NCBI GenBank assembly: GCA_034521495.1 | Contig: JAXHMK010000004.1 | Location: forward strand, 186,001-250,000 | DNA from: Balneolaceae bacterium | GTDB lineage: Bacteria; Bacteroidota; Rhodothermia; Balneolales; Balneolaceae | DNA: 64,000 nt | Reading direction: 5' to 3' | Shown here: piece after piece, positions 13,754 through 19,898 of the stretch | Numbering within the stretch: the first letter of the stretch is position 1 | How the letters are laid out: each line of letters opens with the position of its first letter | Made by a program: the position numbers and the translations under genes | The notes under the pieces: generated by a model | The model's database searches: none | What the model was told of the DNA's origin: nothing | What the model saw: the letters and a program-made list of their open reading frames with translations, nothing else

Positions 13754-15103
13754 TTATACATTTTCCGTTTCATCGATATTCTTTTCGTGGGTGGGTTCTA
13801 CAAATACCCTCAATCCCTGAAATTCTACAATTTTGCATGGCTCGCCTTCTTTCAGTTCATGCTCGCTTTCGGCTGTCCAATATTCACCATCAAAAAAGAC
13901 ACGTCCGGGCTGATTGGGCTGAATCGAATCGACCACTTCAACAGTTTTTCCAACAGTAGATTCCAACCCTGACCGCGGTGGATTGAAAAGAGATTTAATC
14001 CCATAAGTTACAATCCATCCAAAAAATGCTACCGTTAATAGCGTTGCAGGAACCAGCCAGAATAACGAGATCTGCATCTCGTCGGGTAAGTCCTGGAAAA
14101 GCATCAATGCCCCCAGGAAAAATGAGACTGCCCCGCCGGATAAAAGAATACCAAAAGTTGGCGTAAATGCTTCCGCAACAAATAAGATAATTGCCAGTCC
14201 AATCAATAGAAAACCGGCCAGGTTAATTGGCATGGCGGCTACTCCATATAAAAGGAGAATTAACGCAATCACACCGGAAACCCCGGGTACAATTGCACCG
14301 GGATTGGTCACCTCGCCAATAATCCCGTAGATGGCTACCATCGTTAAGATCAGCATGACCTCCGGTCGCAATAAAAAACTAAAAAACTGCTCGGCCAGGG
14401 TTTCATCAATCCGGCTGATGGTGGCATTTTGAGTATTTAAAACCCGATCTCCAATCTCCATACCATTCATTTGAACCAGCAGGTCATCCAGGTCATTAGC
14501 CATAATATCAATCACATTCAGTTCAAGGGCTTCATCCGAAGTGATAGATGCCCCGTCGCGAACGGCCGACTTTGCCCACTCTGTGTTCCTTTCTCGTTCG
14601 CTGGCAATCGATTCAATGAAACTTTCCGAGTAGTTAAAAATCTTTTTCTGAGCCACGGTATCCATCTCTCCGCCTCCCATGGAAATGGGCGATGCCGCAC
14701 CAATATTGGTGGCCGGTGCCATAGCCGCTACATGAGCCGCCAGCGTTATAAACGTTCCCGCACTTCCTGCATTCGCTCCACTTGGCGAAACATAAACCAC
14801 CGTGGGATGATCTGTGCCCAACAACTCCTGAACAATATCCTGTGTTGAATCGAGAAGTCCGCCGGGAGTATCGAGTTCAATAATGAGAGCTTCATCCCCG
14901 TTCTCAACAGACTGCCGAATGCTTCGGGTGATGTATTGCGTAACCGTTGGGCCAATGGTCCCCTCCACACGAATAACGCTAACCGAAGGCTGCTGATTCG
15001 TCTCATCTATAGCTAATGAATCAACTTGAGTTGAATCTTGCAGGGCCAAAAAAATACCCGCGAAAAAAAGTGTAACTGCCAATAAGAATTTATTTGATCT
15101 CAT
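13754..15103 (-). CDS. nfeD: NfeD-type membrane protease (ClpP-like serine protease plus NfeD domains)
   Basis: A 449-residue long-form NfeD. After a signal sequence comes a ClpP/SppA-like protease domain with I-E-L-D-T-P-G-G and the catalytic Ser in A-N-A-G-S-A-G-T-F-I (about residue 113). About four transmembrane segments follow (residues ~245-375). The C-terminus is a small OB-fold domain (G-R-V-F-F-D-G-E-Y-W). Family members cleave hydrophobic stretches of slipin-like partners, and the slipin gene follows directly in the same operon. The frame is intact, unlike its partner. Confidence 0.92.
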   Translation of the reverse strand: MRSNKFLLAVTLFFAGIFLALQDSTQVDSLAIDETNQQPSVSVIRVEGTIGPTVTQYITRSIRQSVENGDEALIIELDTPGGLLDSTQDIVQELLGTDHPTVVYVSPSGANAGSAGTFITLAAHVAAMAPATNIGAASPISMGGGEMDTVAQKKIFNYSESFIESIASERERNTEWAKSAVRDGASITSDEALELNVIDIMANDLDDLLVQMNGMEIGDRVLNTQNATISRIDETLAEQFFSFLLRPEVMLILTMVAIYGIIGEVTNPGAIVPGVSGVIALILLLYGVAAMPINLAGFLLIGLAIILFVAEAFTPTFGILLSGGAVSFFLGALMLFQDLPDEMQISLFWLVPATLLTVAFFGWIVTYGIKSLFNPPRSGLESTVGKTVEVVDSIQPNQPGRVFFDGEYWTAESEHELKEGEPCKIVEFQGLRVFVEPTHEKNIDETENV

Positions 15104-15557
15104 ATCAGGATAATTGAAATCTTACTTTATTGGTTCCATATTAAGGTCAATCATTTTAAATCTCTATCTATAATATACAATCTTTTAGCCGGATACGTGA
15201 TTTCATACTGGCTGATCCTAATTTTAGTTTTGCCCAAAACGTTTCAAGAAGGCTTTACAAATAATTTTTCATGGATGCATTTGATGACAGATTTTTTGCA
15301 TTTCAATAACCAATCCATTCACATTTTACCCACCAAACCTTCCCAAAGGAAGGGTAAGCATTTGCTTTATGCCCGGCATAATGAAGTGGCATCTCATTAC
15401 TTATAAAATGGATTGATCCCAATTTTGTGATCCATTGTTTCGATGATTATCAACCAGTTATTTTGAATGGTTTAGGCAGTTCTGCCTGATTTAAAGAATT
15501 TGTGATCAATCAAAAAAAACATTTGCATTTTATTTTCCATACAGCGAATTTTCAGTC
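15104..15557. other. Upstream region of the arg operon
   Basis: No gene is visible. A CTTCCC-AAAGG-AAGGG hairpin lies near 15339-15355. A possible Bacteroidota-type promoter is TTTG at 15499-15502 with A-A-C-A-T-T-T-G at 15518-15525, close to the TAnnTTTG consensus and about 30 bases before the leader-peptide ATG. The promoter call is weak, but its position fits a transcript carrying the attenuator. Confidence 0.35.
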
Positions 15558-15620
15558 ATGAAAAATTCTACACACATACAGTCTGCTAATCTTCGCCGTC
15601 GCCGCCCATTGGGCGTGTGA
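15558..15620 (+). CDS. argL: Arginine leader peptide of the argFGH operon (20 aa)
   Basis: A 20-codon ORF whose codons 13-16 are four consecutive Arg codons (CGC CGT CGC CGC), in the context N-L-R-R-R-R-P-L-G-V-stop. It starts at ATG 15558, ends 41 bases before an intrinsic terminator, and lies 158 bases upstream of argF. That is the layout of ribosome-mediated attenuation. With scarce arginyl-tRNA the ribosome would stall on the Arg run and change RNA folding so that the terminator does not form. CTACACAC at 15568-15575 and GTGTGTAG at 15626-15633 are perfectly complementary and flank the Arg codons, giving an alternative structure. The gene symbol is descriptive. Confidence 0.75.
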   Translation: MKNSTHIQSANLRRRRPLGV

Positions 15621-15660
15621 TAATAGTGTGTAGTTTCGGCTACTAAAGAACTTATCGCAA

Positions 15661-15691
15661 GCCCGCTCAAATATACTGAGCGGGTTTTTTT
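15661..15691 (+). terminator. Attenuator terminator upstream of argF
   Basis: CCCGCTCA at 15662-15669 pairs with TGAGCGGG at 15677-15684 around a 7-base loop and is followed by seven T residues (15685-15691), a textbook intrinsic terminator on the plus strand. No gene other than the leader ORF precedes it on this strand, so it must act on the transcript that continues into argF. Confidence 0.85.
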
Positions 15692-15778: not shown

Positions 15779-16753
15779 ATGAAACATTTACTAACAATCG
15801 GCGAATTAGACCCCGATCAAGTGCAAGGCATTCTTGATTTAAGTCTACAGTTGCAGAAACAATCGCCACAAATACTACAAGGAAAAAACATCGCTTTTGT
15901 TTTTGAAAAACCATCCCTGAGAACCAAAGTTGGAGCGGAGGTAGCCATCAATCATTTAGGCGGAAACGTTGTGGATGTGGACGGCGACCTGATGTTCTCC
16001 AGCAGCAAAGCCGTACCCTTTAGTTTCCGGGAATCTCTTTATGATGCCATGAAAAACGTATCTCAGTGGTGTGATGCCATATTTGCCCGGGTTTATTCAC
16101 ACAGTACTCTCGAAAAAATGAAACAGTATGGAGTTATACCGGTCGTGAATGCTCTGTGTGATCTTCACCACCCCATGCAGGCGCTGGCAGATATTCTAAC
16201 CATTCAGCAGAATTTTGGGAAGAATGAAAAGATAAATCTTACCTTTGTGGGAGATGCAAATAATGTTGCCCTTTCACTCTCAGAAGTAATGCTCTATTTT
16301 GGCCATAATATTACATTTACCGGACCTGAAAATTATGGGTGGGATGATGAAAAAATCGAGTACTTTTCAAAGCTATCGTCTGAATACGGCGGTTCTTTTC
16401 AGGTAGAAGATGATCCCAAAAAAGCTGTTTTTAATTCGGATGTGGTATACACCGATACATTTATTTCAATGGGACAAGAGCATATGTATGAAGAAAAAAT
16501 TAAGCATTTCGAAGAATACCAGGTAAATGAGGAACTCTTTTCGCAAGCGAAAGAGGAGGCGGGATTTATGCACTGCCTGCCTGCCCACCGGGGCGTGGAA
16601 GTAACGGATGATGTGATAGATCACAAAAATTCCTGGGTCTATCAGCAGGCCAAGAACCGAATGATTGTATCAAAAGGAGTTTTTACAGCTCTTTTATACC
16701 CAACTCTGCTTTCAGGTAAAGACACGCTCAGTTCGCTTAAAGCCAAATTTTAA
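15779..16753 (+). CDS. argF: Ornithine carbamoyltransferase
   Basis: 324 residues, the normal size of OTCase. It joins carbamoyl phosphate and ornithine to give citrulline in the cytosol. The carbamoyl-phosphate site motif S-L-R-T is at about 51-54 (K-P-S-L-R-T-K). The H-P-M-Q motif is in D-L-H-H-P-M-Q-A-L-A-D, the ornithine-side S-M-G is in T-F-I-S-M-G-Q-E, and the catalytic H-C-L-P is in M-H-C-L-P-A-H-R-G. The last motif has A-H-R-G rather than the V-R-R-N of Bacteroides succinylornithine enzymes, so a true OTCase is favoured. First enzyme of argFGH, 45 bases before argG, and controlled by the upstream attenuator. Confidence 0.92.
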   Translation: MKHLLTIGELDPDQVQGILDLSLQLQKQSPQILQGKNIAFVFEKPSLRTKVGAEVAINHLGGNVVDVDGDLMFSSSKAVPFSFRESLYDAMKNVSQWCDAIFARVYSHSTLEKMKQYGVIPVVNALCDLHHPMQALADILTIQQNFGKNEKINLTFVGDANNVALSLSEVMLYFGHNITFTGPENYGWDDEKIEYFSKLSSEYGGSFQVEDDPKKAVFNSDVVYTDTFISMGQEHMYEEKIKHFEEYQVNEELFSQAKEEAGFMHCLPAHRGVEVTDDVIDHKNSWVYQQAKNRMIVSKGVFTALLYPTLLSGKDTLSSLKAKF

Positions 16754-16798: not shown

Positions 16799-18079
16799 AT
16801 GGAACAAGAAACCACTTATAAAAAAGTAGCCTCACACGAAGCAGAAAAAGGAACTTTTAATACGTGTCTGCTTCTCTACTCCGGCGGCCTCGATACCAGC
16901 GTAATGCTGAAATGGATCCAGGAGGAGTATGAATGTGATGTGATTGCACTGACTATCAATATTGGCCAAACGGCTGATAACCTCGATGCCATCAAAAAGA
17001 AAGCCCTTAAACTGGGTGCAAAAGATGTAATTGTATATGATGCGAAAGAGGAGTTTGCCGAACTCTGCACCGAAGCGGTAAAAGCCAATGCCGACTACCA
17101 GGGCGGATATGCACTCGGTTGTCCGCTGGGCAGGGTGATGATCTCCCAACTGGCCGTTCAATTCGCTTCTGAATATGGATGTGAAGTCATTGCACACGGA
17201 TGCACCGGAAAAGGAAATGACCAGGTTCGGTTTGAAAGTTACATCACTACGCTGAATCCCGAACTAAAAATCATTGCGCCGGTTAGAGAATGGGGCATGG
17301 GCCGCGAAGAGGAGATTGCGTATGCACATGAGAACGGAATTCCTGTCGATCAATCCAAAAAATCACCTTATTCCTATGATGAAAATATGTGGGCCAATAC
17401 AGGTGAGGGAGGAGAGATTGAAAACCCCGAATTGATACCACCCCTCGAAAACATTTTGAAATGGGCGAATACTCCTCAAAATGCACCTGATGAAGATGAA
17501 CTCGTTGAGATTGAATTTGAAAACGGAGCGCCGATTGCTCTGAATGGTGTTCAACAGGAGAAAAAAGATCTCATTCAAACACTGAATGAAATTGGTGGTA
17601 AACATGGCGTTGGTGTTTTTCACCTGATTGAGGACCGGGTTGTGGGACTGAAGGTGCGTGGAGTTTATGAAAATCCGGCTGCACACATTTTAATCCAGGC
17701 TCATAAAAACCTGGAGCAACTGGTTTCCACCAGGGAAGAGAATGAACTGAAAACGCTAATGGATCAGAAGTGGGCGTACCTCGTTTACGGAGCCAAATAT
17801 TTTGAACCGGTTGTGGATAATATCCGGGCGTACATCAACGAACAGAACAAAAAAGTGACCGGTACGGTGAAGGTTCGGCTCTATAAAGGAAATTGTGATG
17901 TGGTTGCACTTTCATCTCCCTATTCCTTGTTTGATGAAAACCTGGCGACGTTTAACAAGTCCGCCGCGTTTAACCAAAACGCATCCTCCGGCTTTATTGA
18001 ACTGTGGAATCTGCCACAAAAAACGGCGTACCAGCTGAAGCAGACTGTGAAGAAGGCAGAACGCAAAAGTGAAAAGTGA
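16799..18079 (+). CDS. argG: Argininosuccinate synthase
   Basis: 426 residues. It condenses citrulline with aspartate at the expense of ATP to form argininosuccinate. The N-type ATP pyrophosphatase P-loop Y-S-G-G-L-D-T-S is near residues 27-34. Other family signatures are A-H-G-C-T-G-K-G-N-D-Q-V-R-F-E and the S-P-Y-S-Y-D-E-N substrate-loop region. The N-terminal ~20 residues are slightly longer than in many homologues. The frame is intact. It is the middle gene of the arg operon; a repeat-rich 322-base gap separates it from argH. Confidence 0.96.
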   Translation: MEQETTYKKVASHEAEKGTFNTCLLLYSGGLDTSVMLKWIQEEYECDVIALTINIGQTADNLDAIKKKALKLGAKDVIVYDAKEEFAELCTEAVKANADYQGGYALGCPLGRVMISQLAVQFASEYGCEVIAHGCTGKGNDQVRFESYITTLNPELKIIAPVREWGMGREEEIAYAHENGIPVDQSKKSPYSYDENMWANTGEGGEIENPELIPPLENILKWANTPQNAPDEDELVEIEFENGAPIALNGVQQEKKDLIQTLNEIGGKHGVGVFHLIEDRVVGLKVRGVYENPAAHILIQAHKNLEQLVSTREENELKTLMDQKWAYLVYGAKYFEPVVDNIRAYINEQNKKVTGTVKVRLYKGNCDVVALSSPYSLFDENLATFNKSAAFNQNASSGFIELWNLPQKTAYQLKQTVKKAERKSEK

Positions 18080-18094
18080 AAAGTGCTGGAAAGT

Positions 18095-18330
18095 GCTGAT
18101 GGCGCAAGCGTCCTCGCTTGTGCCCTTGTTCCACAAGCACGAGCGAGACACTCGCACTATCATGTATAATGTAACGGGAAAGGAAGCCGGAGCTTCCGAG
18201 GAGACATTCCGAAGGTGGACCTTCGGAACGAGTAAAATGTCATTGCGAAGGAGCGATAGCGACTGCGGCAATCCCCGAACGTTTGCATGCAGAAATTGCC
18301 GTGGTAACTGCTCGTAATACAATTCGCGCA
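18095..18330. repeat. Palindromic repeats between argG and argH
   Basis: The gap 18080-18401 contains a GGCGCAAGCG/CGCTTGTGCC unit near 18100, a related CACGAGCGAGACACTCGC unit near 18137, and a perfect CCGAAGGT-GG-ACCTTCGG hairpin near 18209-18226, whose relative occurs at about 2525. A CATTGCGAAGGAGCGATAGC-type unit follows near 18241. Such repeats could weaken read-through from argG into argH. No gene is visible. Confidence 0.6.
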
Positions 18331-18401
18331 CTTTTGCGTTTTGCCTTTTCACTTTTCACTATTTTACCAAAAACCTAAATTCTACTTTTAAACCAATACC
18401 C

Positions 18402-19706
18402 ATGTCCAAACTCTGGCAGAAGAGTAACACCGATACTGAAACCAGCGCATCCAAAAAGGCGGAAGCGTTTACTGTTGGGAATGACTACCTGCTTGACCAG
18501 GAGCTCGTTCCTTACGATATCAAAGGCTCGATTGCTCATGCAAAAGCACTCCACAAGATCGGTATTCTTTCGGATGATGAACTCGACAAATTGACCCGCG
18601 CTCTTCATGAAATCCTGGAAGAATGGAAAGAGGATAAATTCGAGATCCGGCTTGAGGATGAGGATATGCATACCGCCATCGAACTCTCGTTGGTTGACAA
18701 GCTGGGCGATCTGGGCAAGAAAATCCACACAGCACGATCCCGAAATGACCAGGTGCTCACCGCCGTCCGACTCTATGAAAAGAAGCAGCTTAAAGAGATC
18801 ATCGGTCTGATTAAACAAGTGGCCGGAGCAATTCTTGAGTTCGCGGAAAAGCATCAAAACATCCCGATGCCCGGTTTTACACACACCCGAAAAGCGATGC
18901 TAAGCAGTGTTGGATTATGGGCAGGTGCGTTTTCTGAATTGTTGATTTTACAGGCAGAATCTTCCAAAGGAGTTGAGTCGTTGGTTGACAAATCTCCGCT
19001 TGGATCTGCCGCCGGATTTGGAACCTCGTTTGATATTGACCGGGAGCAGGAAGCTGAAGATCTTGGATTTTCAGATCCGCTGATCTGCTCAACCACTGCA
19101 CAACTTTCCCGCGGGTGGACCGAATTGCAGTTCGTTCAATATCTGTCAGGAGTAACGGCTGTTCTGAATCGATTTGCTTCGGATGTGATTCAGTTCAGCA
19201 GCTCCGCATATCCCTATTTTGATTTGGATCCCGCCGTTTGCACAGGCTCATCCATCATGCCGCAAAAGAAAAATCCGGATGTGGCTGAACTGCTTCGGGG
19301 CGGTCATTCCGAATTGATCGGTTTTGCATCTTCCCTTCAAATGCTCACAACCAATCTTGGAAGTGGTTATCACAGAGATCTGCAGTTGAGCAAAGAACCG
19401 GTTCTGAAAGCCGTACATAAAACCAAACAATTATTAGAAGCGGCTGAACTGCTCATCACCCATATGAAGCCCATCAAAGAAAACCTTGCCGAAGCGTGCA
19501 GTTCCGAAATCTTTGCCGCTGAAGCCGCCTACGATCTCGTCAAAGAAAAAGGCATGACCTTTCGCGAAGCCTACCGATATATCGGCGATCATCCCGAAGA
19601 AGTGGAAGACATTTCCGCCGAAGAGATTTTGAAAAAGTATACGCACCTTGGCTCGCCGGGGAATGCGGGGTTGGAGAAGTTGAGGGAGAGGTTGGAAAGA
19701 CTTTGA
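18402..19706 (+). CDS. argH: Argininosuccinate lyase
   Basis: 434 residues of the fumarase/aspartase superfamily. It splits argininosuccinate to arginine and fumarate. The signature loop G-S-S-I-M-P-Q-K-K-N-P is near residue 285. Earlier conserved segments are D-M-H-T-A-I-E and T-A-R-S-R-N-D-Q-V, and the catalytic-region G-F-T-H-T. Start at 18402 is the ATG giving M-S-K-L-W-Q-K. The frame is intact. It completes the argF-argG-argH pathway segment; carB, argB, argC and argD are not in this window. Confidence 0.96.
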   Translation: MSKLWQKSNTDTETSASKKAEAFTVGNDYLLDQELVPYDIKGSIAHAKALHKIGILSDDELDKLTRALHEILEEWKEDKFEIRLEDEDMHTAIELSLVDKLGDLGKKIHTARSRNDQVLTAVRLYEKKQLKEIIGLIKQVAGAILEFAEKHQNIPMPGFTHTRKAMLSSVGLWAGAFSELLILQAESSKGVESLVDKSPLGSAAGFGTSFDIDREQEAEDLGFSDPLICSTTAQLSRGWTELQFVQYLSGVTAVLNRFASDVIQFSSSAYPYFDLDPAVCTGSSIMPQKKNPDVAELLRGGHSELIGFASSLQMLTTNLGSGYHRDLQLSKEPVLKAVHKTKQLLEAAELLITHMKPIKENLAEACSSEIFAAEAAYDLVKEKGMTFREAYRYIGDHPEEVEDISAEEILKKYTHLGSPGNAGLEKLRERLERL

Positions 19707-19825: not shown

Positions 19826-19898
19826 CGCTTGTTCGCAATGACTGTGATTACTATTATTATTTTCAGTCAAACCTTAATAACAAACCACCAACAAACAG

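Follow-up and report, generated by a model that had tools for sequence, protein, structure and literature searches.

A probable arginine-codon attenuator upstream of argF-argG-argH in an ArgR-less lineage related to Bacteroidota

Introduction

Arginine is a textbook amino acid under the control of a repressor, ArgR. In fungi, the sequence of the arginine attenuator peptide makes it stall at high arginine, and its target is eukaryotic translation; it resembles the leader described here in being an upstream peptide that controls an arginine-pathway gene, but attenuation of transcription is proposed in our case. The classical attenuators of Proteobacteria (his, trp, leu, thr, phe, and ilv) contain a leader ORF with consecutive cognate codons, RNA strands that pair according to a 1:2 / 2:3 / 3:4 logic, an intrinsic terminator, and structural genes for the same amino acid, and the locus of our study is alike in all these features. 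It differs from them in that arginine would be sensed, the target is an arg operon, the host belongs to an ArgR-less, Bacteroidota-like group, the Arg codons themselves make up strand 1, and a near-leaderless start is predicted.

Classical attenuators, trp and others, are also described in Actinobacteria (PMC1262725). The bacterial case of arginine sensing by leader codons that was returned by our literature search is orf34, the leader of Salmonella speF, where two consecutive Arg codons are present and ribosome pausing remodels the mRNA (PMC6386406). Arg codons of a leader ORF sense arginine there as is proposed here; however, speF encodes ornithine decarboxylase and is governed by Rho-dependent termination, RNase G decay and occlusion of the RBS, whereas at our locus the genes are those of arginine biosynthesis and the terminator is intrinsic (PMC6386406). 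In the related phylum of Flavobacterium psychrophilum, strong clues for leader-peptide attenuation before amino-acid operons were reported, although the main text mentions neither an arginine operon nor a mechanism (PMC9723704). A leader peptide precedes the carbamoyl-phosphate synthase gene carA of Pseudomonas, and attenuation was proposed; the target is different, and ArgR is discussed as a regulator in that genus (PMC4997734). No arg-operon leader was found in the accessible text of the attenuator survey of Naville and Gautheret (PMC2965389), the Actinobacteria study (PMC1262725), or a 26-genome structured-RNA survey (PMC8632094). The original prediction, made from the sequence of the present locus, had remarked that attenuation is rarely described for arginine. 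Our search agrees, since no earlier description of an arginine leader for an arg operon was found in the open literature, subscription papers being outside its scope.

Results

The window analysed was a stretch of 64,000 nucleotides from a Balneolaceae bacterium. The plus strand contained a leader ORF of 20 amino acids, MKNSTHIQSANLRRRRPLGV, at 15558–15620 (ATG at 15558, TGA at 15618–15620), in agreement with the leaders of relatives. Four Arg codons in a row, CGC CGT CGC CGC, were present at 15594–15605. An intrinsic terminator was found at 15659–15691, between the leader ORF and the first structural gene; its stem (15659–15669 with 15677–15687) was 11 bp long with about −17 kcal/mol, followed by a T-run at 15685–15691. 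The genes of argF (ornithine carbamoyltransferase, TIGR00658), argG (argininosuccinate synthase), and argH (argininosuccinate lyase) followed at 15779–16753, 16799–18079, and 18402–19706, respectively, all on the plus strand. The Arg-run ORF, the terminator, and argF were thus present where the original prediction had placed them. The leader precedes argF-argG-argH and not an ornithine decarboxylase gene, which sets it apart from the speF orf34 type. The next gene upstream (13754–15103) was divergent, on the minus strand, with a gap of 675 bp between it and argF; the terminator can therefore act only on RNA that was started inside this gap. Folding of the leader was better than that of 198 of 200 dinucleotide shuffles (z −3.5). 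The argF gene was 85% identical to that of R. sulfatireducens, and the genome grouped with Rhodohalobacter. No riboswitch or T-box match was found in the window with Rfam 15 at the gathering threshold. A pattern search and a covariance model returned this leader only, with no second copy in the genome, and no Arg leader was found at its argD-argC-argJ operon. The gap between argG and argH (window 18080–18401), about 320 nucleotides, contained a repeat-like element, GTCATTGCGAAGGAGCG...GGCAATC, and GTCATTGCGA was found again at 19833 on the opposite strand; the argC-argJ gap of the same genome was similar in length.

A probable promoter was found on the plus strand at 15523–15553, where TTG (15523–15525) was followed, after 20 nucleotides, by GAATTTTC (15546–15553). 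It resembles the −33 TTG / −7 TAnnTTTG type of Bacteroidota. The TTG was unchanged across 23 relatives, and its spacing to the −7 region was kept within the genus. In Flavobacterium the −7 consensus TAnnTTTG sits at −12 to −5 (PMC9723704), and by this consensus the RNA start would fall at or beside the leader ATG. A sigma-70 promoter was also considered and rejected, as the matches of the scan were no better than chance, and the conserved TTG / −7 region was taken instead.

The DNA upstream of argF was collected from relatives by means of their argF genes. In 23 Balneolales genomes, an Arg-run ORF of 19–36 amino acids was followed by 20–51 nucleotides, a terminator with a T-run, and then argF. 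Near-equivalent leaders preceded argF in almost all argF-bearing relatives whose upstream region was examined, the leader was kept across several genera and families of Balneolales, and the terminator was found in all type A leaders examined. Absence of the Arg run and terminator from close relatives would have counted against attenuation, and both were present. Codons 1–3 of the run were Arg in all 33 aligned leaders where they were present; codon 4 was Arg in 29 and Cys in four. The codons varied among the synonyms CGC, CGT, CGG, and CGA. The C-terminal LRRRRPxGV was kept within the genus, where selection on coding and on pairing is hard to separate because the four Arg codons also form a CG-rich helix; the more distant types separate the two. 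No Arg-run ORF with a terminator was found at the argF loci of Peregrinibacteria, Gracilibacteria, and Acidimicrobiia, and the leader therefore did not travel with the gene. A Cytophagaceae-labelled sequence (L116, CP030886.1) contained the same type of argF with another Arg-rich ORF, MTNSYNNIVNIRRSYRRYRRS, and no clear terminator.

The covariance model R1 was applied to 245 class genomes, with E below 1e-7 taken as a strong match. The strong matches inspected, among them the loci that supplied the 33 aligned leaders, all preceded argF, except that of G018. The weak matches inspected (E 1e-5 to 1e-2) proved to be ordinary terminators that lie behind unrelated genes, and they were rejected. G018 is a genome of the same genus without a close argF or argG; its leader (L064:900–1100, G018:C17) had an intact-looking Arg run and terminator, MKFYGNILLMHTRRRRCLLGM, about 400 nucleotides upstream of a SusC/TonB-type receptor gene. 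It may have been orphaned, or it may have been recruited for the control of uptake. In the genus members G001, G012, G013, G018, G023, and G024, two of which are 97% complete, no close argF and no argG were found, and such genomes are possibly arginine auxotrophs. One genome (G093) contained two near-identical copies of leader-argF-argG-argH, on C2 (L065) and C17 (L066).

Alternative helices were found in the leader RNA, all on the plus strand. Strand 1, the Arg-codon stretch (15598–15607), pairs with 15611–15615 and 15617–15621 to form the protector hairpin P2. This hairpin is enclosed by an outer protector helix, P1, made of CTACACAC (15568–15575) and GTGTGTAG (15626–15633). Strand 2, GGGCGTGTGATAA (15611–15623), is the 5' half of an antiterminator whose 3' half, strand 3, is TTATCGCAAGCCC (15652–15664), the end of which is the 5' arm of the terminator; strand 4 is the terminator 3' arm. 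A small apical hairpin of the antiterminator (GTAGT...GCTAC) was present at 15630–15643. In the alignment, 98% of the cells were paired in P2 and 98.5% in the apical hairpin, where a compensatory change was found at one pair. Antiterminator pair counts in a 17-genome alignment were higher than in shuffled and slid versions. High sequence conservation left few double changes for the helix-by-helix shuffle test on the same alignment.

Native pairing was then compared with that of strands exchanged between 23 genomes, with 20,000 permutations. Swapping weakened the 1:2 pairing from −14.6 to −13.0 kcal/mol, 2:3 from −14.8 to −12.1 kcal/mol, and 3:4 from −17.8 to −12.2 kcal/mol, and in each case none of the 20,000 permutations was as good. 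With only the ten sequence types, the 2:3 swap test gave p 0.004. The control pairings 1:3 and 2:4 showed no effect in the 23 genomes, and 1:4 a weaker one (p 0.0009). P1 was also found to co-vary (native −12.4 vs. swapped −10.5 kcal/mol; 0/20,000 permutations). When the Arg codons were masked, the terminator 5' arm paired with sequence 3' of the Arg run in the minimum-energy fold of the 23 leaders examined. For type A leaders, a duplex test limited to the terminator 5' arm gave p 0.23. It was underpowered, since the arm contains only half of strand 3 and the other half is located further upstream; the test suited to these leaders is the swap of full strands. The original prediction had proposed that the two halves of P1 give a second structure sensitive to the position of the ribosome. 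The pairing is real, but it protects the fold that permits the terminator and is not the antiterminator; the antiterminator itself (15611–15623 with 15652–15664) and the Arg-codon hairpin had been overlooked.

Folds were then simulated with a ribosome mask of 17 nucleotides behind and 13 ahead of the A-site, an assumed footprint. Without a ribosome, P1 and P2 were formed (P2 p 1.00), the antiterminator was 0.00, and the terminator followed. With the ribosome at Arg1 or Arg2, the probability of the antiterminator was 0.96 and 1.00, respectively, before the 3' arm was made, and 0.93 and 0.91 in the full leader. At the start codon it was 0.27 and was gone once the terminator was complete, whereas at Arg3, Arg4, or the stop codon it was 0.00 and the terminator fold was found. 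Only stalls at Arg1 and Arg2 produced the antiterminator, an outcome that depends on the assumed footprint. By computation, the constraint folds, the 23 leaders, and the strand swap show an antiterminator that is mutually exclusive with the terminator and gains from a stall at the control codons.

ArgR was sought as PF02863, the C-terminal domain of ArgR. It was not found in the genome itself, which gives no sign of ArgR control, nor in 59 relatives at the level of the order. It was missing from 244 of the 245 genomes of the class and was found in 8 of 14 control genomes. In the sole exception of the class (G153), the PF02863 gene was located immediately before argG. In the wider phylum, PF02863 was matched in 54 genomes, in most of them immediately upstream of argG.

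Arg clusters were also found before other arg operons. Other Balneolales families have argG-first operons, and 11 of the 13 sampled had both an Arg cluster and a terminator ahead of argG (e.g., DSRRRRFRRRLERDLCKDCV), and in other families of the class both were found in 27 of the 35 sampled, for example VRPIRPVRRPRRPRG, with a terminator of −31 kcal/mol, and SRRLRRRRTPARTEW. The terminator arm paired better than shuffled sequence in the argG-first (combined p 1e-7) and the wider-class leaders (combined p 5e-7). In NAGS-argG-argC-argD-argF-argB operons, an Arg cluster was present near the stop codon in 16 of 18, and no intrinsic terminator was found in these leaders; these type C loci are L184, L186, L187, and L197–L217, with MQKSLAHRIDRRSVRRIPRRR as an example of a leader. 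Arg density was above that of dinucleotide shuffles in every group, with combined p values of 1.7e-9 to 2.7e-16 that are too small because the genomes are related, though the peptides are mostly dissimilar. The class-wide clusters of L231 and L246 resembled the tails of ordinary proteins and were rejected as leaders. Elsewhere in the phylum, ArgR-less genomes contained an Arg cluster in 13 of 29 upstream regions (combined p 6e-9), such as SLRRRRPMRRR and TRRRP, both directly followed by the stop; among the ArgR-bearing controls it was one of six (p 0.86). The regions upstream of hisG in the class, taken as an unrelated-gene control, contained Arg clusters in 1/30 and His clusters in 25/30. His clusters are found before hisG and Arg clusters before arg operons; the codon content follows the operon. 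The His clusters of the class were mostly without an intrinsic terminator. Upstream of hisG in the genome under study (G000:C9, L303), a His-rich leader ORF, MLTNKLHTSYHFGHHHGSHEHAVH, was present.

Discussion

We consider it very probable that the leader is a ribosome-mediated transcription attenuator that is specific for arginine and controls argF-argG-argH. Arginine-specific attenuation, as originally predicted, is backed by the conserved Arg codons, the co-evolving helices, the location of the terminator in the gap behind a divergent gene, and the lack of ArgR; folding with and without a stalled ribosome, which the original prediction had proposed as a check, gave the antiterminator at Arg1 and Arg2 and the terminator without a ribosome. 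The RNA would begin just ahead of the leader ATG. When Arg-tRNA is ample, a ribosome translating the ORF would pass the four Arg codons, reach the stop, and cover strand 2; when there is no ribosome, P1 and P2 would hold strand 2. In both cases, the folds indicate that the terminator would form and transcription would stop. When Arg-tRNA is short, the ribosome would be expected to stall at Arg1 or Arg2 and mask strand 1. Strand 2 would then be free to pair with strand 3 and take the 5' arm of the terminator, as folding and co-evolution suggest, and the RNA polymerase would presumably run on into argFGH.

Poly-basic stretches can slow ribosomes, and the switch might therefore sense the Arg-rich nascent peptide or free arginine, through arrest of the ribosome, rather than uncharged tRNA. 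The fungal arginine attenuator peptide arrests the ribosome in this manner at high arginine. The conserved end of the peptide, LRRRRPxGV, would fit such an arrest, but within the genus it is accounted for by pairing with strand 2. The peptides differ widely by type (LRRRRPLGV, VVLRRRCRTG, DSRRRRFRRRLERD, and VRPIRPVRRPRRPRG), and Arg density alone is common to all, as sensing of codons predicts; moreover, these genomes have His clusters at their his operons. We regard arrest by the peptide as improbable. Alternatively, the terminator might be acted on by a riboswitch for arginine or by an RNA to which a protein binds, the ORF being incidental; either would suit the strong RNA structure and the mutually exclusive helices. 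This is somewhat less probable still, as no Rfam family matched, codons 1–3 remain Arg through synonymous changes, and a shared aptamer fails to explain the recurrence of Arg clusters before arg operons with unrelated leaders. A non-regulatory pair, in which an insulator or constitutive terminator lies beside a chance ORF, is hardly credible: each is common singly by chance (0.6 terminators expected per kb), but the arrangement is conserved across the order, which in practice already refutes it, the alternative pairing co-evolves, and the neighbouring upstream gene is divergent, which leaves nothing to insulate.

Attenuation by codon sensing is a mechanism of a known type; what is new is its use for arginine, at an arg operon, and in place of ArgR across the class. 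The Arg leader would occupy the role that ArgR fills in most bacteria, and from the genomes compared, attenuation by such a leader appears to be the rule in the ArgR-less class and not an oddity. In a broader reading, Arg-codon leader peptides would be a general arginine feedback in ArgR-less Bacteroidota and their Rhodothermota/Balneolota relatives, with at least three operon layouts and unrelated leaders; we put the chances of this at about even. Within this reading, the NAGS-argG-argC-argD-argF-argB leaders are without an intrinsic terminator and therefore would need another, undescribed route, through Rho, translation, or mRNA decay.

For the ArgR-less class, attenuation by a leader is apparently the standing solution, matched by the His leaders of the same genomes. 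A direct question is thereby made testable, namely whether the loss of ArgR was accompanied by a gain of codon-based control. The divergent natural variants of the leader, some of them terminator-free, form a set for studying how operons in Bacteroidota are controlled by leader peptides.
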